From Burkholderiales bacterium (GTDB lineage Bacteria; Pseudomonadota; Gammaproteobacteria; Burkholderiales; Burkholderiaceae_C): DNA of 64,000 bases. A program made the translations under genes and the position numbers. This document shows positions 47,067 to 60,762 of this stretch, in pieces. The first letter of the stretch is position 1. Each line of letters begins with the position of its first letter. The DNA lies in assembly GCA_016195825.1 (NCBI GenBank), contig JACPYV010000010.1:1-64000 (forward strand), read 5' to 3'. Below the pieces are notes generated by a model. It saw nothing but the letters and a program-made list of their open reading frames with translations. It had not been told where the DNA came from and did no database searches.

Positions 47067-47642
47067 TCAGGCCCCGGGCCATTCGACCAGCACGGCCGTC
47101 GCCGCGGGCTTGCGCGCCGGCCCTGCTGGGCGGCGCATTGGCGTACCCAGCGCAATCCAGCCCAGCAGCGTCTCGCCGGGTTCGCAGAACGCGGCGGCGA
47201 TGGTCGGGTTGCGCACCTTGGCGCCGCTGAGCATCTTGCCGCCGAAGCCCAGCAGATGGGCAGCCATCAGGAAGTTGCTGATGGCGCCGCCAACGGCCGC
47301 CCATTGCTCGTGCGCCGGCACCTGCGGGTGGCCCAGATCGATGCGGGCGACAACGGCCACCGTCATCGGTGGCTTGAGCGCACGTTCGGCGTCCAGTGCC
47401 GCGCCCTCATCGCCCTTGCCTGCCGCGCGCGCCGCGTCGGCAAACAGGGCAGCCATGCCCTCTTTCGCGGCGCCGCGCACCAGCTTGAACCGGTAGGGCA
47501 CCAGTTCGGCGTGGTCGGGTGCGCGCAGCGCGGCCTGGGCCATCCACGCAAGCTGCTCGTCGCTGGGCCCGGGCTCGACCAGATGCTTGGGGCCGACCGA
47601 AAAGCGGCTCAGCACCGCATCGAGCGCGGGAGGCTGGATCAC
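47067..47642 (-). CDS. Nitroreductase-family protein
   Basis: FMN-dependent oxidoreductase-like protein of 191 aa, closest in style to small single-domain YdjA-type nitroreductases. RFSVGPKHLVEPGPSDEQLAWMAQAALRAPDHAELVPYRFKLV is the FMN-binding start. GGAISNFLMAAHLLGFGGKMLSG and LLGWIALGTPMRRP are also typical. It starts at a GTG overlapping the stop of the binding-protein gene (GTGA), so it is the last cistron of the long selenium/formate unit. Substrate unknown. Confidence 0.87.
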   Translation of the reverse strand: MIQPPALDAVLSRFSVGPKHLVEPGPSDEQLAWMAQAALRAPDHAELVPYRFKLVRGAAKEGMAALFADAARAAGKGDEGAALDAERALKPPMTVAVVARIDLGHPQVPAHEQWAAVGGAISNFLMAAHLLGFGGKMLSGAKVRNPTIAAAFCEPGETLLGWIALGTPMRRPAGPARKPAATAVLVEWPGA

Positions 47643-48508
47643 TTCAGCAGGCCGGCGTTCTCGGCAGCCGCCTTAATGCCGTTGTAGTTCTCGGGCTTGC
47701 TGGGGATGAACCGGGTCGCGCGCTGCAGGCCCAGGATCTCCTTGCCCTGGGGTGTGTTGGGGTCCAGCGCCAGGAAGGCGGCCTTGATCTTCTCGCGCAG
47801 CGCCTCGGGCATGTCGGCATGCACCGACCAGTTGTAGTCGAAGTAAGGCGGCGTTGTGTAGAAGACCTTGACCGCGGCCGGGTCCACCTTCTTCTCGGTG
47901 ACGAACTTGTCCCAGACCGAAATGTTCAATGCACCAGCGTCCACCTTGCCGCTGGCCACAGCGGCGATCGTTGCATCGTGAGCGCCGCTGAAGGCCACGC
48001 GCTTGAGGTCCACGTCGGGATTGATCTTGGCCGCGAGCAGGAAGCTGCGCGGCATCAGGTGGCCCGAGGTGCTGCTGGCCGAGCCGAAGGACAGCGTCTT
48101 GCCCTTCAGGTCCTCCAGCTTGTTGATGCCGCTCTTGGCGTCGGTGATGAAGACGGAGCGGAACTTCTCGTCCTCCTCGCGCTGGACCAGCGGCAGGATC
48201 TTGCCGCCCGAGCGCACGTTGGCCTGCACGAAGGTGAAGCCGCCGAACCAGGCCAGATCGATCTTCTTATTGACCACCGTCTCAACGGCCGCGGCGTAGT
48301 CGGTCACCGGCGTCCACTCGACCTTCATGCCCAGCTTGCTCTCCAGGTAGGCCCCCAGCGGCGCGAACTTGCGCGCCAGCTCGGTGGGCGACTCGTCGGG
48401 GATGGCCGTGACGCGCAGCACCTGCTGGGCCTGGGCCGCTGCGCCGGCCAGGGCCAGCGACATCACCACACCGCGCGCCAGACCGGCGACGACACGAGAA
48501 AGAGCCAT
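47639..48508 (-). CDS. PhnD-like ABC substrate-binding protein, putative selenate type
   Basis: Periplasmic binding protein of 289 aa. The signal peptide is followed by QVLRVTAIPDESPTELARKFAPLGAYLESKLGMKVEWTPVTDYAAAVE, then DLAWFGGFTFVQANVRSGG and GKTLSFGSASSTSGHLMPRSFL. This matches the phosphonate/phosphite-type fold annotated in several genomes as putative selenate transporter components next to selenium genes. Position downstream of selA-selB and tRNA-Sec supports that. No cognate permease or ATPase gene is present; a nitroreductase follows instead. GGAG precedes the ATG. Confidence 0.85.
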   Translation of the reverse strand: MALSRVVAGLARGVVMSLALAGAAAQAQQVLRVTAIPDESPTELARKFAPLGAYLESKLGMKVEWTPVTDYAAAVETVVNKKIDLAWFGGFTFVQANVRSGGKILPLVQREEDEKFRSVFITDAKSGINKLEDLKGKTLSFGSASSTSGHLMPRSFLLAAKINPDVDLKRVAFSGAHDATIAAVASGKVDAGALNISVWDKFVTEKKVDPAAVKVFYTTPPYFDYNWSVHADMPEALREKIKAAFLALDPNTPQGKEILGLQRATRFIPSKPENYNGIKAAAENAGLLK

Positions 48509-48541: not shown

Positions 48542-48922
48542 TCAGAACACCAGCGTGGCCCACGCCGAATGCGCGGCGCGGGATGCGTATTGAACCGCAC
48601 CGCCGTGGCGGCGGCCGGCCGGGATCAGGTCATCGTGCGTCAGCCCCTGGGCCGCGAGCGCATCGGAGCAGGCGAAGAAGCGTGCGCCATGGTCCAGCGC
48701 ATCCTGCATCCATTCGGCGATGGACTTGTCGAAGCGGTCAGACGCCCTCAGCGCCTCGGCCACGCCGGGCCTGAGCAGCAGCACGGCGCGGGCCGAAAAA
48801 TAGATCTCGACCTGCAACTCCAGCGCCGCTGCCGCGGCCGCATGGGCGAAGGGCGTGGCCAGCCGAACGGGATCGTCCGGGTCGGTTGCCCAGAGCAGGA
48901 TGGCCAGTCCGGTGCGCTTCAC
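48542..48922 (-). CDS. DsrE/DsrF-like protein
   Basis: A 126-aa protein whose start ([49 protein letters not shown]) and close (FFACSDALAAQGLTHDDLIP) resemble the DsrE/YchN fold used in sulfur-transfer proteins. The Cys in FFACSDAL is at the position where some DsrE proteins carry a reactive Cys. It starts at a GTG overlapping the GcvH-like stop (GTGA). The track lists it only within a longer upstream extension. In this locus a role in selenium or sulfur handling is inferred from neighbours. Confidence 0.75.
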   Translation of the reverse strand: MKRTGLAILLWATDPDDPVRLATPFAHAAAAAALELQVEIYFSARAVLLLRPGVAEALRASDRFDKSIAEWMQDALDHGARFFACSDALAAQGLTHDDLIPAGRRHGGAVQYASRAAHSAWATLVF

Positions 48923-49356
48923 GAGATGGCGTCCAGCTTGTTGAGCCAGGCCCAGCGCGCCATCGCCTCGCCGACGGCCACCTCGCCGATGACCAGTCCG
49001 GCCTTCTCGGCCTCCAGCCGCGATGGTGCCAGCTCGACGAGCCAGCCCTGGCCGTAGGGCGAGCGATGAACCAGCTCGGGCTGCGCCTCCAGCGCCTCGT
49101 TGACGCGCGTGACGACACCGGACAGCGGCGACTTCACCGACACGATGGACTTGGCCAGCTCGACGACACCGATGGAGCGGCCCTGCTCGACCTCGCTGCC
49201 CACCGGCTTGGGGCGGCACATGTAGATCTCGCCCGAGGCCCGGATGCCCAGCGCCGTGATGCCGACGCGGACCTGGCCGTTGGGGAGCGGCTCGGCCCAG
49301 GTCTGGTCCTGCGGCCACAGCCAGAAGCCATCGGGGACGCTCGCGCGTGCGCTCAT
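48919..49356 (-). CDS. GcvH-like lipoyl-carrier protein
   Basis: A 145-aa protein of the glycine-cleavage H-protein fold. The barrel reads RVGITALGIRASGEIYMCRPKPVGSEVEQGRSIGVVELAKSIVSVKSPLSGVV, then NEALEAQPELVHRSPYGQGWLVEL. The lipoyl-lysine position of GcvH (ES-VKA) corresponds to Lys69 in ELAKSIV, so it could be lipoylated. No gcvT or gcvP is nearby, and it is coupled to a DsrE-like gene, so a role other than glycine cleavage is likely. I chose the ATG at 49356; a GTG at 49362 is possible. Confidence 0.82.
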   Translation of the reverse strand: MSARASVPDGFWLWPQDQTWAEPLPNGQVRVGITALGIRASGEIYMCRPKPVGSEVEQGRSIGVVELAKSIVSVKSPLSGVVTRVNEALEAQPELVHRSPYGQGWLVELAPSRLEAEKAGLVIGEVAVGEAMARWAWLNKLDAIS

Positions 49357-49420: not shown

Positions 49421-49438
49421 GCCGTACTTTCGTACGGC
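49421..49438 (-). ncRNA. Perfect stem-loop with GAAA tetraloop between tRNA-Sec and gcvH-like gene
   Basis: On the minus strand GCCGTAC-GAAA-GTACGGC forms a 7-bp perfect stem closed by a GNRA tetraloop. There is no T-run, so a simple terminator is unlikely. It lies within the 132-nt spacer downstream of tRNA-Sec and may belong to a larger structured leader or a processing element. Function unknown. Confidence 0.5.
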
Positions 49439-49488: not shown

Positions 49489-49584
49489 TGGCGGAGGGGC
49501 GAGGGAGTCGAACCCTCCCAGCAGCGCGTGGCGCCACCCACCGGGTTTGAAGCCCAGCCGACACACCGGTGTCGTTGCCCCTCC
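49489..49584 (-). tRNA. selC: tRNA-Sec (anticodon TCA)
   Basis: The minus strand reads GGAGGGGCAACGACACC at the 5' end and GGTTCGACTCCCTCGCCCC through to TCCGCCA at the 3' end. The anticodon loop is CTTCAAA with anticodon TCA. The long acceptor/T arrangement, the G discriminator, the long variable arm (GGTGGCGCCACGCGCTGC region), the D-stem GGTGTGTCGGCT and a total of 96 nt including encoded CCA are diagnostic of selenocysteine tRNA. It lies 4 nt downstream of selB, inside the same operon as the selenoprotein gene. Confidence 0.96.
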
Positions 49585-49588
49585 AGTT

Positions 49589-51466
49589 TCATGTCGGCTG
49601 CTCCGCGAACAGCGCGCTGTCGGCCCGCAACCGATGCTCGTCGACCACACGACGCAGCAGGCCAACGCGGTCGAAATGTTCCAGGTGCTGGATGGCCCGC
49701 TTGCGGCCCATGCCCGTGGCATCACGGAAGGCAGCGGCCGTCACCTTGCCTTGCTCGGCCCCCAGCCGGCGGGCGGTGGCGGCGAGTGTCGTCATCGTGG
49801 CGGTGTCGCAGTACAGGTCTTTCACCACCTGGTGCAGGTCCCCCTGCCGGGCCAGCCGCGCAAGCGTGGCACGCACTAGCGGCTCCGGCTCAGCGCAGTC
49901 CTTGGCCAGGTCGCGCGCCCACGCGCCTTCGACACCAGCCAGCGCGAGGCGCGGCGCGACCTTCTGCGCGATACGTTGCTCCACGGCTGACAGCTGCACG
50001 CCGTGCTCGGGCAGGTGCACGAACGCGCCGCGCTGCGCAAGGCGGCCACCGGCGAGAAGCTGTTCGAGCAACTGGCGCCAGAGCGGCTCGGCCATGCGCG
50101 GGGCGACGAGGCGGCGCAACCGGGCGGCGTCGGGCCCGAGTTCGTCGGGGAACTGGGCGTGAAAGGCCGCCACCCTGACCAGCAACTGGCCCGTCAGCGC
50201 CACGCAGGCGCTGTCGCCCAGCGCCCAGCCCTGCCCGGGTTCGGCCAGGCCCTCGGCCTGGGCGCAGCGAGCCAGGTCCAGGCCCAGCGGCGCCAGCTCC
50301 AGCAGGCGAGCGCGCCGCCTCGCGGCCGTGGGCAGCTCACGGGCCGACAGCTCGGCCAGGCGCTCGGGCGTGCGGCGGTAGCGGGTGGGGGCGAAGGGGT
50401 CCAGCACGAGGCCGCCAGCCAGCGCGCGGCTGGCGCCGGCGTCGCGCAGCACGAAGCGGTCCCCATGCCAGGCGCCAACGGGCGCATGGACCAGCAGTTG
50501 CACGAGGGCCGAGCCGCCGGGTGCGATGGCATCGCCGTCCAGCACAGCAACGCTGGCCATGACGGCCTGGGCACCAAGGTGCATGTGCACACGCGCGCCG
50601 GAGCGCAGCGGCTTGGCTTCACCGGGCCAGAGCGTCAGGCGAGCATCGATGCGGTCCGTGGTGAGCGCCACGGCCGGCGCGGTGAGCCACTGGCCGCGCG
50701 CGGCCTGCTCCCTGGCCAGGCCGGCGAGGGCCACCGCGCAGCGCTGGCCGGCGCGCGCGCGCTCCACGGCGCGGTTCTGTGCATGCAGGCTCTTCACGCG
50801 GGCCATCGCCAGGCCATGAGGCCCCTGGATGACCAGTTCGTCGCCGACAGCGATCTCGCCCGTGTGCAGCGTGCCAGTGACGACGGTGCCCACGCCGTCC
50901 AGGCTGAAAGCGCGGTCCACCGCGAGCCGCGCGGCCAAGCCCTGGCTGCTGCGGGGCGGCAACGCACGGGAAGCCGTGAAGAGCAGCTCGCGCAGCGCGT
51001 CCAGCCCCCGGCCGGTGGTGGCGGACACGGTGAGCACGGGGGCGGTCGCGAGGCCGGTACCAGCGAGCAGCACCCTCGCCTCCTCCGCCAGCGCGGCCAG
51101 ACGTTCGGGCTCGGCGCGGTCCGCCTTGGTGATGACGACGGCGCCCCGGCTCAGACCCAACAGGCTGAGCACGGCCAAGTGCTCACGGGTCTGCGGCATG
51201 ACGCCGTCGTCAGCGGCGATGAGCAGCAGCGCGAAGTCGATGCCGCTGGCGCCGGCCAGCATGGTGTGCACGAGCTTCTCATGGCCGGGCACGTCGATGA
51301 AGCCCAGGCGTTCGTCGTGGTCGGGAACGTTCAGGTAGGCATAGCCCAGCTCGATGCTGATGCCGCGCGCCTTCTCCTCGGGCAGGCGGTCGGTGTCCAC
51401 GCCGGTCAGCGCGCGCACGAGCGTGGTCTTGCCGTGGTCGATGTGGCCGGCGGTGCCGACGATCAC
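49589..51466 (-). CDS. selB: Selenocysteine-specific elongation factor
   Basis: Translation GTPase of 625 aa that carries Sec-tRNA to UGA codons marked by a SECIS hairpin. G motifs are [30 protein letters not shown] and the NKxD equivalent [13 protein letters not shown]. Domains 2 and 3 follow ([19 protein letters not shown]). The C-terminal winged helices for SECIS binding end the protein ([30 protein letters not shown]). The true start is a GTG overlapping the selA stop (GTGA); the track version at 52018 runs into selA out of frame. Confidence 0.97.
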
Positions 51467-52887
51467 GCCAGGGCCTCCTTCAGCAGGCCGAGTTGCGCGG
51501 TCAGCAGCGCCGGCTCCTCCAGGCAGCGCATATCCAGCAGCAGGCGGTCGTCCTGGATACGACCGATGACCGGCCGGGACAGGCCGCGGAGCGCGGTCGC
51601 CAGCGCCTCCAGCGTACGGCCCCGGCCATCGACGGCCGTGATCGCCAGGCCTGCGGAAGGAAGGCGCTCCACGGGCAGCGATCCGGAGCCGATCTGGCTC
51701 TGCAGAGCGACGGCTTCGACCGTGAAGCGCGGCGCAACGGCAGCAGCGACGTCCGGCAACAGGTGCCGGGCCAGCGCGGCGATGTCCGCCTGGCCGCGTG
51801 TCAGAAGCCTCAGGGTCGGCAGGTCTTGCGCCAGTCGCTCCGGTCGCAGGTACAGCCGCAAGGTGGCCTCCAGCGCGGCCAAGGGCAGCTTGGACAAGCG
51901 CAGCGCGCGCTTCATCGGGTACTTGCGAATGCGGCTCACGGCGGCGCGGCTGCCGACGATGAGGCCGGCCTGTGGGCCACCCAGCAGCTTGTCGCCGCTG
52001 AAGGTGACGACGTCGCAACCGGCCTTGAGCATCTGCTGCGGCATGGGCTCAGCCGGCAGGCCGTAAGCGCTCATGTCGACCAATGCACCGCTGCCGAGGT
52101 CGGTCATCAGTGGCAGGCTGGCAGCGTGAGCGATGGGCGCCAGCTCGGCCTCGGATACGGCCGATGTGAAGCCCTGCACCTGGTAGTTGCTGGTGTGCAC
52201 CTTGACGATCAGACCCGTGCGCGGCGTGATGGCCTGCTCGTAGTCGCGCGGGTGGGTGCGGTTGGTGGTGCCCACCTCCACCAGCGTGGCGCCGGCCGCG
52301 GTCATCACATCGGGCATGCGGAAGGCACCGCCGATCTCGACCAGCTCGCCGCGTGACACGATGGCCTCTCGCCCGCCGGCCAGCGCGGCAATGCCCAGCA
52401 GCACGGCGGCGGCGTTGTTGTTGACGACGGTGGCAGCCTCGGCACCGGTCAGCTCGCACAGCAGGGCTTCGATCAGCGTGTCACGGTCGCCACGCCCGCC
52501 GGCGTCGAGGTCGAACTCCAGGTTGTTGGGTGCGGTCATCAGCGCCAGCAACTGCGCGAGCGCCGCGTCGGCCAGCAGCGCGCGGCCCAGGTTGGTGTGG
52601 ATGACGGTTCCGGTCAGGTTCAGCACCACGCGCATGACCGGCCGCAGCCGCGCCTGCACGCGGGCGGCGAGCGACTGCGGCAGCGCATCGAGCTCCAGCC
52701 GCATCAACTGGCCCGCTACGGCGCGCGCGCGCAGGCCGTCCAGCAGCCCCCTCGCCTCGTTGGCGACGAGGGTGTGGCCGTGCTCGGCCACCAGCAGCGC
52801 GCAATCGCGCAGCAGCTTGTCCAGCGACGGCAGGTCTTTGGGGACCGCCTTGGAACCGTGGACCACGGATTCGTCGGGCGCGCTCAT
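51463..52887 (-). CDS. selA: L-seryl-tRNA(Sec) selenium transferase
   Basis: PLP enzyme of 474 aa that converts Ser-tRNA(Sec) to Sec-tRNA(Sec) using selenophosphate. Motifs are [53 protein letters not shown] and the PLP Lys in [18 protein letters not shown] (about residue 299). The ATG at 52887 shares its A with the fdhE stop. The selenophosphate synthetase gene selD, also required, is not in the window. Confidence 0.97.
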
Positions 52888-53885
52888 CAGTGCTCTCTTC
52901 CGGGCGGCGGCGGCTCGTCGGGCTCGCCGAACAGCAGCAGCAGGCTGCCGCCGTGGCGCTGCAGGCCGGCGTCATTGACCAGCAGGTCCAGCGTCAGCGT
53001 GGCCAGGTCGTCGGCGACGGGCTCCAGGCCGTTGTCGCGCGCCGGATGCATCAGCTTCAAGTAGTGACCGCATTCGCTGCAGCACTCGGCCTGCACGGCG
53101 GGCTGGGTCTCAGCCGGGCTGCCGTCGGCAGCCACCAGACTTTGCAGCGAGATGCCCTTGGTGCTCTGGCAATTCGTGCACTTGACGCGCACGTAGTGCC
53201 ATTGCGTGGCGCACAGGCCGCAGGCCAGATAGCGCGCGCCGTCGGCACCCAGGCGCTCAACGGCGGCCACCGGGCGCGAGGCGCAGCAGGGGCAAACCGT
53301 GGGATCGTCGGTGCGACCGAAGGGCGCCACGGCGCCACTGACATGTGCAGCGGCCGTCTGCCGCGCCAAGCGCACCCAGTGCAGTTGCAGGCCGGCGGCG
53401 ATGAGCGGTGCGCTGGCGAAGTCCAGCCCCAGCATGACGCCCGACAGCAGACGGCCCGCCTGGGTCTCCAGGTGCTCGTCGCTGGCGGCCGCGAGCTGCA
53501 ATGTCACGGTCTTGGCCGGGCCGTCTGCCAGGTGACGGGCCAGGTCGGCGAGCAGCGCGCGCAGCGACTCGCGCCAGACCGGCGCGCGCGGCCAGGTCAG
53601 GGCGGGCAGCAGCGGCTGGCCGGCACGGGCGGCTGCGCCGATGTCGTCCGCCGTCGGCAGCGACACGGGGGTGCCGGCCGACAGCGCACGGTGCTGGGCG
53701 TCGGCCAGTTCGGCGACAAAGAGCAGGAAATCGCGCATCGCATGCCCAGCACTGAGCGCACGCAGACGCAAGGCGCGCTCGGCAAACACGCCGGCCTCCG
53801 GCAGGTGCAGGAACGTCAGCTGCTCGCCGGCGCGAACGGCGATCTCTTCAGGGCTGAGAAGTCTCTGAGTCGTGCTGGCGGTCAC
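52887..53885 (-). CDS. fdhE: Formate dehydrogenase accessory protein FdhE
   Basis: Cytoplasmic maturation protein of 332 aa required for active membrane formate dehydrogenase. It carries the rubredoxin-like Cys pairs of the family: CPCCASRPVA, CGLCATQWHYVRVKCTNC and AECCSECGHYLKLM, ending in the conserved DDLATLTLDLLVNDAGLQR. It starts at a GTG overlapping the fdnI stop (GTGA), and its own stop overlaps selA. Confidence 0.95.
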   Translation of the reverse strand: MTASTTQRLLSPEEIAVRAGEQLTFLHLPEAGVFAERALRLRALSAGHAMRDFLLFVAELADAQHRALSAGTPVSLPTADDIGAAARAGQPLLPALTWPRAPVWRESLRALLADLARHLADGPAKTVTLQLAAASDEHLETQAGRLLSGVMLGLDFASAPLIAAGLQLHWVRLARQTAAAHVSGAVAPFGRTDDPTVCPCCASRPVAAVERLGADGARYLACGLCATQWHYVRVKCTNCQSTKGISLQSLVAADGSPAETQPAVQAECCSECGHYLKLMHPARDNGLEPVADDLATLTLDLLVNDAGLQRHGGSLLLLFGEPDEPPPPGREH

Positions 53886-54505
53886 TGCTTGCCTGTCATT
53901 TCACGGTGCCACAGCGGGTGATTCTGGCGCGCCCAGCCTTCAGTGACCGTGCCGCGCGTCATCGCCCGTATCGTGCCCTTGACCCAGATGGCCGCGTACA
54001 CATGCACGATGACCGAAAGGATGAGCACAGTAGCTGACAGCGCGTGCAGCACGACGGCGATGCGCCGGGCCACGATGGGGAAGCTGTTGGCGAACCAGGG
54101 CTGCCAGAAGACGAAGCCGGTCAACACCAGCACAGCCAGGCTGACGACCATGACCCAGAACACCTGCTTTTGCCCGGCGTTGTAGCGGCCGACCGGCGGC
54201 ATGCGGCTCTTGTCACCGCGCAGCATCTCGCCGCTGTGCTTCATCCATTCCTTGTCCGCCTCGTTCATCACGTTGTGGCGCCACAGCTTAAGCGCCATGA
54301 CGCAGAAGCAGGCCGCCATGGCCAACCCCAGGAAGGGATGCAGGATGCGCGCCCAGGTGCCGCCGCCCACGAGACTCGACAGGAAATAGAGGCTGGGGTG
54401 GAAGAAGGCCAGTCCGGAGAAGGCGGCGCCGAGGAAGAAGAGCACGATCAACCAGTGATTACTGCGCTCGCCCTTGGAGTAGCGCGGGAGGTAGCGGATG
54501 CCCAT
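53882..54505 (-). CDS. fdnI: Formate dehydrogenase gamma subunit (cytochrome b)
   Basis: Inner-membrane cytochrome b556-type subunit of 207 aa that passes electrons from formate oxidation to the quinone pool. There are four hydrophobic helices: RSNHWLIVLFFLGAAFSGLAFF, ILHPFLGLAMAACFCVMAL, VFWVMVVSLAVLVLTGFVFW and IAVVLHALSATVLILSVIVHVYAAIW. The heme-ligand histidines lie within these helices (NHWL, LHPF, LHAL, VHVY). The ATG at 54505 (MGIRYLPRYSKGER) is used instead of the track start at 54544, which overlaps fdnH. Confidence 0.93.
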   Translation of the reverse strand: MGIRYLPRYSKGERSNHWLIVLFFLGAAFSGLAFFHPSLYFLSSLVGGGTWARILHPFLGLAMAACFCVMALKLWRHNVMNEADKEWMKHSGEMLRGDKSRMPPVGRYNAGQKQVFWVMVVSLAVLVLTGFVFWQPWFANSFPIVARRIAVVLHALSATVLILSVIVHVYAAIWVKGTIRAMTRGTVTEGWARQNHPLWHREMTGKQ

Positions 54506-54518
54506 GATGCTGTGCTCC

Positions 54519-55412
54519 TCAGACCTTGGCGGCCGGTTCGTCATCCTCGACCTCGTCTTTCGACTCGATCGGACCCACGCGGGTGTAATGGAAGAAGCCT
54601 GCCACCGCCGCGCCGATCATGGCTGCGACGGCCAGCGGCTTGGCCACGCCCTTCCAAAGCGAGACCAGCGGGCTGATCTTGGGATCTGCGGGCAGGCCAT
54701 GGTAGAGCTCGGGCTTGTCGGCATGCTGCAGCACGTAGACGACGTGGGTGCCACCCACGCCCGGCGGGTCGTAGACGCCCGCGTTGGCGTAGCCTCGCTC
54801 CTTCAGGTCCACGACGCGCTCGGCGCCGTAGTCCAGCATGTCGTCCTTGGTGCCGAAGCGGATGGCGCCCGTGGGGCAGGCCTTGGCACAGGCCGGCTCC
54901 AGACCCACGCCGACGCGGTCAGAGCACAGGCTGCACTTGTAGGCCTTGGCGTCGGCCTGGCTGATGCGCGGCACGTCGAACGGGCAGCCGGTCACGCAGT
55001 TGCCGCAGCCGATGCAGTGCTCCGAGATGAAGTCGACGATGCCGTTGGTGTACTTGACGATGGCACCGGGCGCCGGGCAGCTCTTCAGGCAGCCCGGGTC
55101 CTCGCAGTGCATGCAGCCGTCCTTGCGTATCAGCCACTCGAGCTTGTCCTTCTCGACCTCCACCTCCGAGAAGCGCATCACCGTCCAGCTCTGCGGCGTC
55201 AGGTCGCGCGGGTTGTCGTAGGTGCCGATGTTGTCGCCCACGTCGTCGCGCAGGTCGTTCCACTGCATGCAGGCCACCTGGCAGGCCTTGCAGCCGATGC
55301 AGGAGGACACGTCAATGAGCTTGGCGACCTCGGCCACATGTTTGCGGGCCTGCGTGGACGGCGTCGTGGTGGCCGAACGCTTGGCGATATCGAGGGATTG
55401 CAATGAAGACAT
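54519..55412 (-). CDS. fdnH: Formate dehydrogenase iron-sulfur beta subunit
   Basis: Electron-transfer subunit of 297 aa with four [4Fe-4S] cluster motifs: [35 protein letters not shown] and [21 protein letters not shown] single C-terminal membrane helix ([17 protein letters not shown]) anchors it on the periplasmic face, as in Fdn/Fdo enzymes. It starts 3 nt after the fdnG stop. Confidence 0.96.
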
Positions 55413-55415
55413 TGT

Positions 55416-58400
55416 TCAGGCCCTCTCGATGTTGACCGTGAAGCTCTTGAACTCCGGCGTCTGCGTGTTCGCGTCGCCCACGAAGGGGGTCAGCGTGTTC
55501 ACGAGATAGCCGGGTTTCGCCACCCCGACGAAGCCCCAGTGGTTGGGCAGGCCCACGGTGTGCACGCGTTTGCCGTCCACGTCCAGCGACGCGATGCGCT
55601 TAGTGACGACAGCCACCGCCTTGATAAAGCCGCGGTTGCTGCTGACCTTGACCCAGCCACCGTTCTCTATGCCCTTCTCCTTGGCCAGCTCCTCGCCGAT
55701 CTCGACGAATTGCTGCGGCTGCACGACGGCCGAGGTACGCACGTTCTTGGTCCAGTAATGGAAGTGCTCGGTCAGCCGGTAGCTGGTGGCCACATAAGGG
55801 AAGTCCTTGGGCGTCCCGAAGGCCTCCAAGTCGCCCTTGAACACGCGTGCCGCCGGGTTGGACTTGGCCTTGGCGTTGCCCGGGTGCATAGGGTTGGCCG
55901 CCAGGGGTGTCTCGAAGGGCTCGTAGTGCTCGGGCAGCGGCCCGTCCACCATGCCGCTGGGCGCAAACAGCCGCGCCACGCCCTCGCCCGTCATGATGAA
56001 GGGCCGCACAGCGTCGTCATCGGTCGGGTTGGCATCGGGGCGGATGTCCGGCACGTCGGAGCCGCCCCACTTCTCGCCGTTCCAGGCCACCAGGCGACGC
56101 TTGGCGTTCCAGGGCTTGCCGGTCGGGTCGCAGGAAGCAGCGTTGTAGAGCACGCGCCGGTTGGCCGGCCAGGCCCAGGCCCAGTTCAGCGTCTGGCCGA
56201 TGCCATAGGGGTCGGCGTTGTCGCGCCGCGCCATCTGGTTGCCGGCCTGCGTCCAGGCGCCGGCGTAGATCCAGCAGCCGGACGACGTGCTGCCGTCGTC
56301 GCGCAGCAGGCCGAAGCCGCTGAGCTGCTCGCCGGCCTTGGCCAACACCTTGGTCGGGTCCTTGGGGTCGGTAACGTCGGCCAGCGCCTTGCCGTTGTAC
56401 TCCTTGGCCAGTTCCTCGGCCGAGGGGTTGGTGGGCTGCAGGTAGGGCCAGGTCAGGTTGACGATGGCGTCCGGGAAGGCGCCGCCCTCCTTCACGTAGG
56501 CCGCCTTCATGCGCGTGAACAGCTCGGCAATGATCTCGGGGTCGCCCTTGGCCTCGCCCGGAGGCTCGGCGCCCTTCCAGTGCCATTGCAGCCAGCGGCC
56601 GGAATTGGTGAGGGACCCGTCCTCCTCGGCAAAGCAGGTGCTGGGGAAGCGGAAAACCGTCGTCTGGATCTCCTCGCTCTTCACGTCGTGATGCTCGCCG
56701 TGGTTCTTCCAGAACTCCGCGGTCTCGGTGTTGAGCGGGTCGATGATGACGAGGTACTTCAGCTTGGACAGGCCCGCGACGATCTTCTTCTTGTTGGGGA
56801 AGCTGCCCACCGGGTTGAAGCCCTGACAGATATAGCCGTTGAGTTTGCCCTGGGCCATCAGCTCGAAGGTCTGCAACACGTCATAGGCCTTGTCCCACTT
56901 CGGCAGGTAGTGGAAGGCCCACTGGTTGTCGGCCGTGGCCGCCTTGCCCCACCAGGCCTTTTGCTGGCTGACGAAGAACTTCGGGTAGTTCTGCCAGAAG
57001 CTCATCTGCCCGGGGCGCAGCGGCTTGGTGGCCCGCGGCTTGTAGTAGGTCTCCAGGTCTTGCTCGCTGTCGCGTGCCAGGCTCATGTAGCCCGTCAGCG
57101 AAGTGGACAGCAGGCCCAGGTCGGTCAGGCCCTGGATGTTGGAGTGGCCGCGCAGCGCGTTCATACCGCCGCCTGGCAGGCCGATGTTGCCCAGCAGCAG
57201 CTGCATGATGGCGCCAGTGCGGATCATCTGCGAGCCCTGGCTGTGCTGCGTCCAGCCCAGCGCGTACATGATGGTCATGACCTTGTTGGGCTTGGACGTC
57301 TCCGCGATCATTTCGCAGACCTTCAGGAACTTGTCCTTGGGCGTGCCGGTGATCTTGCTAACCTGCTCGGGCGTGTAGCGCGAGTAATGAGCCTTCATCA
57401 CGTTGAGCACACAGCGCGGGTGCTCCAGGGTCGGGTCGACCTTGGCGAAACCCTTGTCATCCAGCTCGTAGCCCCAACTCTTGTTGTCGTAGCGGCGCTT
57501 GGTCTCGTCGTAGCCGCTGAAGATGCCGGCTTCGAACTTGTAGTCCTCGCCGACGACGAAGCTGGCATTGGTGTAGTGTTTGACGTACTCGGTCTGAATC
57601 TTGTTGTTGCTGAGCAGGTAGTTGATGACGCCGCCAAGGAAGGCGATGTCAGAGCCCGCGCGGATCGGCGCGTAGTAGTCGCTCATCGCGGCCGAGCGCG
57701 TGAAGCGCGGGTCCACGACGATGAGCTTGGCCTTGTTGTGGTGCTTAGCCTCGATGACCCACTTGAAGCCGCAGGGGTGGGCCTCGGCGGCATTGCCGCC
57801 CATGATGAGCACGAGGTCAGCGTTCTTGATGTCCACCCAGTGGTTGGTCATCGCACCGCGCCCAAACGTCGGGGCCAGACTGGCCACCGTCGGGGCGTGT
57901 CAAACGCGCGCCTGGTTGTCGAAGACCAGCATCCCCATCGAGCGCATCGCCTTGTGGGTGATGTAGCCCGATTCGTTGGAGGACGCGGAGGCACACAGCA
58001 TGCCGGTGGTCAGCCAGCGGTTCACCGTCTTGCCGTCGGCGTTCTGGGCGATGAAGTTGGCATCGCGGTCGGCCTTCATCAGCTTGACGAGGCGGGTCAT
58101 CGCGTCATCCCAACTGACGCGCTTCCACTCAGTGCTGCCGGGCTCGCGGACTTGCGGGAACTTCAGCCGGTTGGGGCTGTGCACGAAGTCCAGCAGTCCG
58201 GCGCCCTTGGGGCACAGCGTGCCGCGGTTGACCGGATGGTCGGGGTCGCCTTCGATGTGGATGATGGACGACGTGACGTTCTTCGCCTTATCGCCCAGGC
58301 TGTACATGATGATGCCGCAACCCACCGAGCAGTAGGGGCAGGTGTTGCGGGTCTCGGTCGCCCGGGAGAGTTTGAAGTTGCGCGCTTCGGCGAGAGCCGC

Positions 58401-58487
58401 CGTCGGCGAGAACCCCAAGGCCACGAGGCTGGACGCTGCCAACCCCGCACCGCTCACCCGGAAGAATTGCCTCCGGTTCATGTCCAT
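55416..58487 (-). CDS. fdnG: Formate dehydrogenase-N/O alpha subunit, selenoprotein (in-frame TGA = Sec196)
   Basis: Molybdenum/tungsten bis-MGD enzyme oxidising formate in the periplasm; 1023 aa read through TGA. A Tat signal (NRRQFFRVSG) starts it, followed by a [4Fe-4S] motif (CPYCSVGC, LCPKG). The ORF track splits it at the TGA (57900-57902) into 58490-57900 and 57887-55416. Joined, the sequence is NQARV-U-HAPTVASLAPTFGRG, the exact context of selenocysteine in FdnG/FdoG, and the Sec falls at residue 196 as in E. coli FdnG. A SECIS hairpin follows, and selA, selB and tRNA-Sec lie downstream in the operon. I start at the ATG at 58487; the track start is the GTG before it. Confidence 0.97.
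57862..57902 (-). promoter_or_regulatory. Bacterial SECIS element after the Sec codon
   Basis: Starting at the TGA, the message folds around GGTGGCCAGTCTGGCCCC. The outer G-G pairs with C-C, a U is bulged, GGCCA pairs with UGGCC and the loop is GUC. A bulged U and a short GU-containing apical loop at this distance from the UGA are what SelB recognises in enterobacterial formate dehydrogenase messages. Confidence 0.85.
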
Positions 58488-58502
58488 CACGGCTTGTCTC
58501 CT

Positions 58503-58652: not shown

Positions 58653-59747
58653 TCAGGTGGACTTGGAGATGGCGATGCTCGGGAACTTGGCCGAATAGTC
58701 CTTGGACTGTGCCGCGATCTTGGACGCGACCTTGCGCGCCAGCGCCTTGTATAGCGCAGCGACCTCGCCGTCCGGCTCGGCAGCCACCGTGGGCGTGCCC
58801 GAGTCCGCCTGGGCGCGGATGCTCATGGCCAGTGGCAGCGAGGCCAGCAGCTCCGTGCCGTACTGGGCGGCCATCTTCTGGCCGCCCTCGGCGCCGAAGA
58901 TGTGCTCGGCATGGCCGCAGTTGCTGCAGATGTGCACGGCCATGTTTTCGACAATGCCGAGGATGGGGATGCCCACCTTCTCGAACATCTTCAGGCCTTT
59001 CTTGGCGTCGATGAGGGCGATGTCCTGCGGCGTCGTCACGATGACGGAGCCGGTCACCGGCACGCGCTGAGACAGGGTCAGCTGGATATCGCCCGTGCCG
59101 GGCGGCATGTCGACGATGAGGTAGTCCAGGTCCTGCCAGCGAGTCTGGCGCAGCAGTTGCTCCAGCGCCTGGGTGGCCATGGGGCCGCGCCAGATCATGG
59201 CCTGGTCGTCGTCGACCAGGAAGCCGATGGAGTTGACCTGCAGGCCGTGGGCGATGTGCGGCTCCATGTTCTGGCCGTCCAGCGTCTCGGGCCGGCCGCT
59301 GGCTCCCAGCATCAGCGGCTGGCTGGGGCCGTAGACGTCGGCGTCCAGCACGCCCACGCGGGCGCCCTCGGCGGACAGCGCCAGCGCAAGGTTGGCGGCC
59401 GTCGTGCTCTTGCCCACGCCGCCCTTGCCGGAGGCGACGGCGATGATGTTCTTGACGCCCGGCAGCAGCTGCACGCCGCGCTGCACGGCATGAGCGACGA
59501 TCTTGGTCGAGATGGCGACGCTGACATTGCCGACGCCCGGCAACTGCCTGGCCGCCGCGATCAGCGCCGCCCGCAGGCTCGCGTGCTGGCTGGCTGCCGG
59601 GTAGCCCAGCTCCACCTCGAGGACGACGTCGCTGCCGTCGACCTTGACCGACTTGATCGCCTTGGCCTCGCCCAAACTGCGGCTGCTGCCAGGGTCGACA
59701 ACGGCTTGCAGCAGGGGTTGCAGCAGGGCTTCGGAAATCGCGGTCAT
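58653..59747 (-). CDS. apbC: Mrp/ApbC iron-sulfur cluster carrier ATPase
   Basis: P-loop ATPase of 364 aa that carries [4Fe-4S] clusters to target enzymes. An N-terminal DUF59/MIP18 domain (LEVELGYPAASQHASLR) precedes the deviant Walker A VASGKGGVGKSTTAANLALAL, then LDADVYGPSQPLMLG and LDYLIVDMPPGTGDIQLTL. The cluster-binding pair CSNCGH is in NMAVHICSNCGH. The ATG at 59747 is used; the track start at 59969 overlaps the divergent promoter region. It sits upstream of fdnG on the same strand, but a 165-nt gap with its own signals separates them. Confidence 0.94.
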   Translation of the reverse strand: MTAISEALLQPLLQAVVDPGSSRSLGEAKAIKSVKVDGSDVVLEVELGYPAASQHASLRAALIAAARQLPGVGNVSVAISTKIVAHAVQRGVQLLPGVKNIIAVASGKGGVGKSTTAANLALALSAEGARVGVLDADVYGPSQPLMLGASGRPETLDGQNMEPHIAHGLQVNSIGFLVDDDQAMIWRGPMATQALEQLLRQTRWQDLDYLIVDMPPGTGDIQLTLSQRVPVTGSVIVTTPQDIALIDAKKGLKMFEKVGIPILGIVENMAVHICSNCGHAEHIFGAEGGQKMAAQYGTELLASLPLAMSIRAQADSGTPTVAAEPDGEVAALYKALARKVASKIAAQSKDYSAKFPSIAISKST

Positions 59748-59862
59748 GGGCGGCAAGAGTTCACTGAAACGGGTCGCGCAGTCTAGCCCGCGCTCCGTTT
59801 GCATCCAGTTGGCGGGCTTTGTGCGTAGAGTGCAACGGCCTTCCCCAACGCCGGAGATCCCC

Positions 59863-60762
59863 ATGTACCGCCGCCCCGTCCTCCTGCTCACTGCCGCCAT
59901 GCTCGGCGCGCCCGCGATGGCCCAGTCCGGCGGCGGCAAGCTGCTGCTGACCGGCGGCGTTTCCAGCATCGACGGCGCCGCCGGCGGTGGCCTGACGCCC
60001 TGGGCCGTGACCGGCAGCTACGCCACTGCGGGCGAAGTCGGCGCGACGGCCTTTGTCACGCGAGCCAAGACCGGCAACTACGGGCTGTGGACGTATGGCG
60101 CTGCCGTTGGCATCCAGGATCGCGTCGAGATATCGCTGGCGCGGCAGGACCTGGACACCGAGAACAACCTGGCGCCGCTGGGGCTGGGCGGCCTGCACCT
60201 GAAGCAGGACATCCTGGGCGTGAAGCTGCGCGTGGCCGGTGACGCCGTGCTGGACAGCGACACGCTCATGCCGCAAATCGCCATCGGCCTGGAACACAAG
60301 AAGGCCCATGTCGGCAACCTCGGGCCCACCCTCTTCGGCCCGCTGGGCGCCAAGGATTCGGGCACGGATTTCTATGTCAGTGCCACCAAGCTCTTCCTGG
60401 CCGAGGGCGTGCTCGTTAACCTGACGCTGCGCGCCACCAAAGCCAACCAGAACGGTCTGCTGGGCTTTGGCGGTGCGCAAAGCAGCAGCGTCAAGGTCCA
60501 GCCCGAGTTCTCCATCGCCAAGCTGCTGGCCAAGAACATCGCCATCGGCGTGGAGTTCCGCGCCAAGCCGGACAACCTGCACGAGTCGGTGCTCGGTTCC
60601 GGCGCGCTTAAGGAGGACGACTGGAAAGACGTCTTCGTCGCCTGGGCACCCAGCAAGCATGTCTCGCTGACGGCCGCCTGGGTGGATCTGGGCCGCATCG
60701 CGCCTGCGGTGCAGCCCAAGCGCCAGACAGGTGCCTACCTGTCGGCGCAACTCGCCTTCTAG
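59863..60762 (+). CDS. DUF3034-family outer-membrane-type protein
   Basis: Exported protein of 299 aa with a signal peptide (MYRRPVLLLTAAMLGAPAMAQ) and a mature part rich in alternating beta-strands, ending in an aromatic residue (AYLSAQLAF), as outer-membrane barrels do. DUF3034 features include GGVSSIDGAAGGGLTPWAVTGSYATAGEVGATAF and LKQDILGVKLRVAGDAVLDSDTLMPQIAIGLEHKK. Function unknown. It is followed 9 nt later by an exported globin and then by a TonB receptor. Confidence 0.85.
   Translation: MYRRPVLLLTAAMLGAPAMAQSGGGKLLLTGGVSSIDGAAGGGLTPWAVTGSYATAGEVGATAFVTRAKTGNYGLWTYGAAVGIQDRVEISLARQDLDTENNLAPLGLGGLHLKQDILGVKLRVAGDAVLDSDTLMPQIAIGLEHKKAHVGNLGPTLFGPLGAKDSGTDFYVSATKLFLAEGVLVNLTLRATKANQNGLLGFGGAQSSSVKVQPEFSIAKLLAKNIAIGVEFRAKPDNLHESVLGSGALKEDDWKDVFVAWAPSKHVSLTAAWVDLGRIAPAVQPKRQTGAYLSAQLAF

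Follow-up and report, generated by a model that had tools for sequence, protein, structure and literature searches.

A GcvH-like putative lipoyl carrier and a DsrE-like protein are linked to the selenocysteine genes of Burkholderiales

In the window (the whole stretch of 64,000 nucleotides analysed here, from a Burkholderiales bacterium) the minus strand carries a selenocysteine (Sec) locus in which the genes for the alpha (with an in-frame UGA), beta and gamma subunits of a formate dehydrogenase (FDH) are followed by fdhE, selA, selB, tRNA-Sec, a gcvH-like gene, a dsrE-like gene, the gene of a PhnD-type binding protein and a nitroreductase-like gene. The features are as follows.

55416-58490, minus strand: formate dehydrogenase alpha subunit; the in-frame UGA at about 57900-57902 makes it a selenoprotein and a client of the locus
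54519-55412, minus strand: formate dehydrogenase iron-sulfur subunit
53882-54544, minus strand: formate dehydrogenase cytochrome b subunit
52887-53885, minus strand: fdhE-like formate dehydrogenase accessory protein
51463-52887, minus strand: selA, selenocysteine synthase (TIGR00474, 567 bits, above the cut-off)
49589-51466, minus strand: selB, Sec-specific elongation factor, in conserved order and recognised by sequence
49489-49584, minus strand: tRNA-Sec, anticodon TCA
49421-49438, minus strand: hairpin GCCGTAC-N4-GTACGGC in the spacer from tRNA-Sec to the gcvH-like gene, kept in relatives
48919-49356, minus strand: GcvH-like lipoyl carrier ("GcvHse"), ATG start, 145 aa, with the lipoyl-type Lys69 and a single cysteine, Cys47, in a YMCRPK motif
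48542-48922, minus strand: DsrE-like protein ("DsrEse"), GTG start, 126 aa, with a single invariant cysteine, Cys85
47639-48508, minus strand: PhnD-type periplasmic binding protein of the "putative selenate" family TIGR04553, with no ATPase or permease after it here
47067-47642, minus strand: nitroreductase-family protein, conserved at the sel locus

The place given to the pair by the first-pass annotation, after tRNA-Sec (49584-49489) and before a selenate-type binding protein (48508-47639), was confirmed. The gcvH-like and dsrE-like reading frames overlap by four bases, the GTG start of dsrE lying on the TGA stop of gcvH as GTGA, and because of this overlap the translational coupling that had been claimed is plausible. 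Neither gcvT nor gcvP is found at the locus, as had also been noted, and the genome has its complete gcvT-gcvH-gcvP set at another place (L046). Upstream of the FDH genes there is an ApbC/Mrp-type iron-sulfur carrier (58653-59969, minus strand). The hairpin occurs once in the window; its stems are kept in relatives while the loops vary, and it is also present in a locus devoid of gcvH and dsrE (L203). A conserved RNA structure over the whole spacer between tRNA-Sec and gcvH was not supported (z -0.59).

GcvHse is a member of the GCV_H superfamily (Pfam PF01597, 88.7 bits against a cut-off of 22.2), with a score below the cut-off of the glycine-cleavage equivalog (NCBIfam TIGR00527, 67.3 against 115.85 bits). 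Its predicted structure (pLDDT 90) matches H proteins at TM 0.8-0.9, and Lys69, within GVVELAKSIV, corresponds to the lipoyl lysine of H proteins with solved structures, so that the earlier assignment of this residue to the lipoylation site (ELAKSIV) holds. The lipoyl lysine and the glutamate three residues before it were invariant among 17 divergent carrier sequences aligned, with identity to the carrier of the window down to about 25%. A mechanism based on Cys47, the only cysteine of the window GcvHse, was considered and dropped, since divergent members lack this residue; it is conserved in one subgroup only and is therefore no general part of the mechanism. DsrEse belongs to the DsrE/DsrF family (Pfam PF02635, 36 bits against a cut-off of 22.7), and its predicted structure (pLDDT 97) matches DsrE/DsrF sulfurtransferases. 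Cys85, the only cysteine of the window protein, was invariant in 21 sequences aligned, and both the carrier lysine and this cysteine stayed invariant down to about 25-30% identity in the sequences aligned. From what is established for this family, DsrEse would be a carrier of a chalcogen (sulfane sulfur or selenium).

Across the 53 distinct genomes examined, from nine GTDB families and with identities down to about 25%, the pair was found in the sel locus every time. Because the same arrangement is seen in 53 distinct genomes it is not a chance one, and the attachment to selenocysteine genes that had been claimed from the window alone is borne out. A close relative of the carrier was present in 13 of 61 related genomes, and each of the 12 neighbourhoods of relatives outside the window had SelB and tRNA-Sec upstream and DsrE downstream, with SelA wherever the contig reaches. 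A context-blind scan of 84,980 species with two carrier peptide patterns gave 35 confirmed loci, in Roseateles, Pelomonas, Paucibacter, Methylibium, Piscinibacter, Hydrogenophaga, Massilia and other genera, and SelB and tRNA-Sec upstream and DsrE downstream were again found at every one of them (35/35). When 80 sel-locus stretches were read from further genomes, mostly of other families of the order, both genes were present in 16 and neither in 64, and a gcvH-like gene without a dsrE-like gene, or the reverse, occurred at none of these 80 loci. The gene order can vary, as in G286, where gcvH stands before selA and dsrE after tRNA-Sec. All-against-all clustering of the reading frames in the neighbourhoods was dominated by antisense frames of the GC-rich DNA. 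In the plasmid collection we found only ordinary GcvH-like matches, of less than 60% identity.

Phylogenetic profiling against selA gave a concordant picture. A profile of divergent members run against 369 genomes of the order returned 14 best matches at 177-206 bits, all of them in selA-positive genomes and linked to sel genes, followed by a score gap from 177 to 164 bits, and the retrieved matches at or below 164 bits carry the motif ESGKW of the sulfur-oxidation carrier LbpA; one further carrier in the order sample (G183) scored 108 bits. The carrier subfamily, for which equal presence in genomes lacking selA had been named as a refuting outcome, is not distributed in this way: all carriers were selA-positive both in the order sample (15/15) and among the relatives (13/13), against selA in 109/399 genomes of the order and in 29/61 of the relatives (Fisher 2e-9 for the 15 carriers, uncorrected for relatedness). 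Genomes with LbpA-like matches, where LbpA-like proteins occur with or without selA, were selA-positive in 25 of 54 cases, as opposed to 15/15 for GcvHse, those ranking below the 30 retrieved loci being classed as LbpA-like by score alone. In the samples tested, which were capped in size, the pair is thus selenium-dedicated, being confined to selenium-using genomes, and its link to the selenocysteine pathway is real and strong.

In a phylum-wide sample, matches at 143-149 bits came from three genomes, all selA-positive, that belong to a single genus outside the order. Two of them have a DsrE-GcvH pair, which may or may not be part of the same system, some 4-5 kb away from tRNA-Sec and on the other strand (L251, 3642-4474; L252), and in the third (L253) it lies on a separate contig stretch without sel genes. 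Another match of that sample (G435, 141 bits) consists of two GcvH-like genes side by side, a couple that looks like an LbpA pair. Several sampled genomes are drafts or metagenome-assembled. In one genome (G217; L153, L154), possibly mis-binned, selA is missing from the contig with selB-tRNA-Sec-gcvH-dsrE and a second contig carries selA-selB, and a contig named Methylotenera with a Roseateles-like sel locus (L056) is probably a binning error.

The module is accessory. Four species of the same genus (G003, G005, G009 and G011) keep an intact sel locus with FDH genes, tRNA-Sec and the nitroreductase-like gene, which is thus kept (47067-47642 in the window) even where gcvH and dsrE are both missing; two of them also retain the binding protein. 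Because these loci lack both genes, the pair appears to have been lost (or gained) as a unit, and most selA-positive genomes are without it. The same four genomes show that Sec synthesis does not strictly require the pair.

The product of 48508-47639 passes the NCBIfam model for the putative selenate ABC transporter substrate-binding protein (397.8 against 250 bits), and in relatives a complete ABC importer lies downstream of dsrE. The binding protein is an orphan in the window; in one relative (L035, 10674-13928) it is followed by an ABC ATPase, two permeases and then the nitroreductase gene. A sulfide-dehydrogenase-like (FCSD) flavoprotein is encoded between selA and selB at several loci (L063, L147, L150, L042, L057, L071, L076, L078, L146), some of which add a TlpA/ResA thioredoxin and a transglutaminase-like protein in the same interval. 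Matches to the flavoprotein were found at 10 of 54 loci with the pair, compared with 2 of 84 without it.

Regarding the origin of the carrier, 16 canonical GcvHs lie on one side of a fully supported branch (100) with GcvHse outside, so that clustering with ordinary glycine-cleavage H proteins, the other outcome that would have told against the proposal, was not seen. The 36 LbpAs in turn lie on one side of another branch (support 98), and the Se-type carriers fall outside both groups. A quick tree splits the Se-type carriers and its root is not fixed, and a tree constrained to their monophyly was not worse (p-AU 0.71). By profile score the nearest outside relatives are LbpA2 proteins (105-127 bits with the close-relative profile), which are closer than GcvH, and the nearest of them also adjoin a DsrE gene, within an sHdr sulfur-oxidation cluster, in keeping with the kinship to sulfur-oxidation lipoyl carriers that had been proposed. 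GcvHse would constitute one more lineage among the lipoyl carriers of GcvH fold, next to the glycine cleavage H protein and LbpA. Identification as the glycine cleavage H protein was rejected on score, tree and the separate gcvTHP of the host, and identification as an sHdr LbpA on the absent cysteines, the undetected ligase and the different tree group.

As to the equipment of the host, SelD is encoded on another contig and LipB is present, while LplA was undetected in the host genome. A search for the LbpA-type lipoate ligase (sLpl(AB)) gave no match in the host and five other carrier genomes and did match the positive control (G046); a search for sHdr, with one subunit as query and without a positive control, gave no match in the host genome. 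Since LplA and an LbpA-type ligase were undetected, LipB would have to accept GcvHse, and from established knowledge of the pathway we expect GcvHse to be lipoylated by LipB/LipA. LipB reportedly serves every known lipoate pathway apart from sHdr (PMC10332631).

Genomic linkage indicates a shared pathway, not a reaction. For the reaction we turn to sHdr, in which the lipoyl arm of LbpA is believed to present sulfur in protein-bound form and DsrE-type proteins to deliver sulfane sulfur (PMC6067878); since the same two protein types stand here in a Sec-only context, the same chemistry on selenium is suggested. We put it at an even chance that the pair is a DsrE-lipoyl relay that, like sHdr-LbpA, holds and reduces selenium for SelD. 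Selenium would be imported as an oxyanion in the lineages with the adjacent ABC transporter, and would be bound to Cys85 of DsrEse in perselenide or selenotrisulfide form. With the dihydrolipoyl arm on its Lys69, GcvHse could then take over the selenium from DsrEse, reduce it and hand it at the selenide level to SelD without release of free selenide, and lipoamide dehydrogenase would re-reduce the lipoyl arm. The hand-over and its direction are modelled by analogy on sHdr-LbpA. The importer found after dsrE in relatives and the flavoprotein seen at some loci speak for the relay, whereas the absence of the pair from most selA-positive genomes (16 of 80 sel loci have it) and the place of SelD on another contig speak against it.

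Other explanations can be considered for the same observations. The pair may serve selectivity or detoxification, keeping sulfur out of the Sec pathway or excess reactive selenium away, with perselenides or selenite scavenged on the DsrE cysteine and the lipoyl dithiol, and not feed SelD at all. That the pair can be lost while selAB stays is to be expected if its task is protective and not biosynthetic, the sulfide-dehydrogenase-like flavoprotein is added at some loci, and in sulfur oxidation persulfides are handled by lipoyl carriers together with DsrE proteins (PMC6067878). However, detoxification need not be limited to selA-positive genomes, whereas every carrier in both samples was found in one, and the adjacent importer family points to uptake; we regard this explanation as unlikely, though it is the one to which we give most weight beside the relay. 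It is less probable still that the pair matures the neighbouring Sec-FDH, providing its Mo/W-bis-MGD cofactor or one of its clusters with sulfur (or selenium). FDH genes and fdhE do stand in the same cluster at most loci, but many Sec-FDH loci lack the pair, and the pair usually follows tRNA-Sec, beyond selB, and is not placed among the fdh genes. Moreover, one genome (G119) has selA, a transglutaminase-like gene, selB, tRNA-Sec, gcvH and dsrE with no FDH within about 7 kb, which makes the maturation of FDH less likely and ties the pair to Sec rather than to FDH.

The relay also presupposes that Lys69 is lipoylated, and GcvHse could instead act beside DsrE at the sel locus in a structural or regulatory role, with a lysine that is conserved yet unlipoylated. 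We think this improbable: the invariance of the lysine and of the glutamate preceding it, as well as the match of the predicted fold to H proteins, argue against it, as does the LipB of the host, which serves GcvH-type acceptors in general. Speaking in its favour are the lack of detectable LplA and LbpA-type ligase in the host genome and the behaviour of the closest relatives, the LbpAs, which are reported to be unmodified by canonical, LipB-type machineries (PMC6067878, PMC10332631). Finally, sel clusters move between lineages (PMC5322559) and could have carried along two unrelated genes. Such hitch-hiking is hard to reconcile with two genes that, over nine families and at low identity, stay together in a varying gene order and keep their catalytic-type residues invariant, and we consider it very improbable.

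The relay that we favour would bear on a known gap, since SelD has a selenide Km that falls within toxic concentrations, the physiological selenium donor is described as unresolved, and the candidate carriers rhodanese and thioredoxin have no established physiological roles (PMC8538045). The selenium candidates proposed from genome context are YedE, YedF, DUF3343 and LysR_Se, with no lipoyl carrier among them (PMC5322559), and we found no description of this lipoyl carrier/DsrE pair in the literature searched. We tentatively suggest, with slightly less than even confidence, that the lipoyl carrier and DsrE form a relay which reduces selenium and brings it to selenophosphate synthetase; this would be the first step of selenoprotein synthesis to depend on lipoate, and a candidate for the bacterial selenium donor system. 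If true, this would give lipoate a new role beyond 2-oxoacid dehydrogenases, glycine cleavage and sHdr sulfur oxidation. The shortlist for selenium delivery consists of two proteins and two residues (Lys69 and Cys85), and the species of the same genus with the pair (R. saccharophilus, for example) and without it provide a natural experiment.

Compared with known systems, GcvHse is like the glycine cleavage H protein (TIGR00527) in its fold and lipoyl lysine, but scores below threshold, lies outside the canonical clade and has no gcvT or gcvP at its locus, in a host with its own gcvTHP. GcvH-L of Streptococcus (PDB 5a35) is likewise a stand-alone GcvH-like protein, from which GcvHse is distant (21% identity; 35 against a cut-off of 150 with the GcvH-L family model NF045810). 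DsrEse shares the fold (TM 0.7-0.8) and the DsrE-family cysteine of the DsrE/DsrF-like sulfurtransferases (PDB 2qs7, 3mc3, 3pnx and DsrEFH 2hy5), with only 16-17% identity and in a context of Sec synthesis. YedF/FdhU (TIGR03527; PMC5322559) also has a DsrE-like domain linked to selenium genes; however, YedF combines it with a SirA domain and carries a CGxC motif, whereas DsrEse is a lone DsrE domain of 126 aa with one cysteine, which gave no TIGR03527 match in the NCBIfam search and falls outside the YedF/FdhU definition. The closest parallel is LbpA2 (with LbpA1 and DsrE) of sHdr (PMC6067878, PMC10332631), which has in common with GcvHse the GcvH fold, the lipoyl-type lysine and an adjoining DsrE gene. 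LbpA has two strictly conserved cysteines near its N- and C-terminus (PMC6067878), both absent from the GcvHse of the window, and whereas LbpA carries ESGKW, the Se-type carriers mostly have E-x-x-K followed by S, T or V. GcvHse lies outside the LbpA group of the tree and, with no sHdr genes at its locus, sits with selA, selB and tRNA-Sec.
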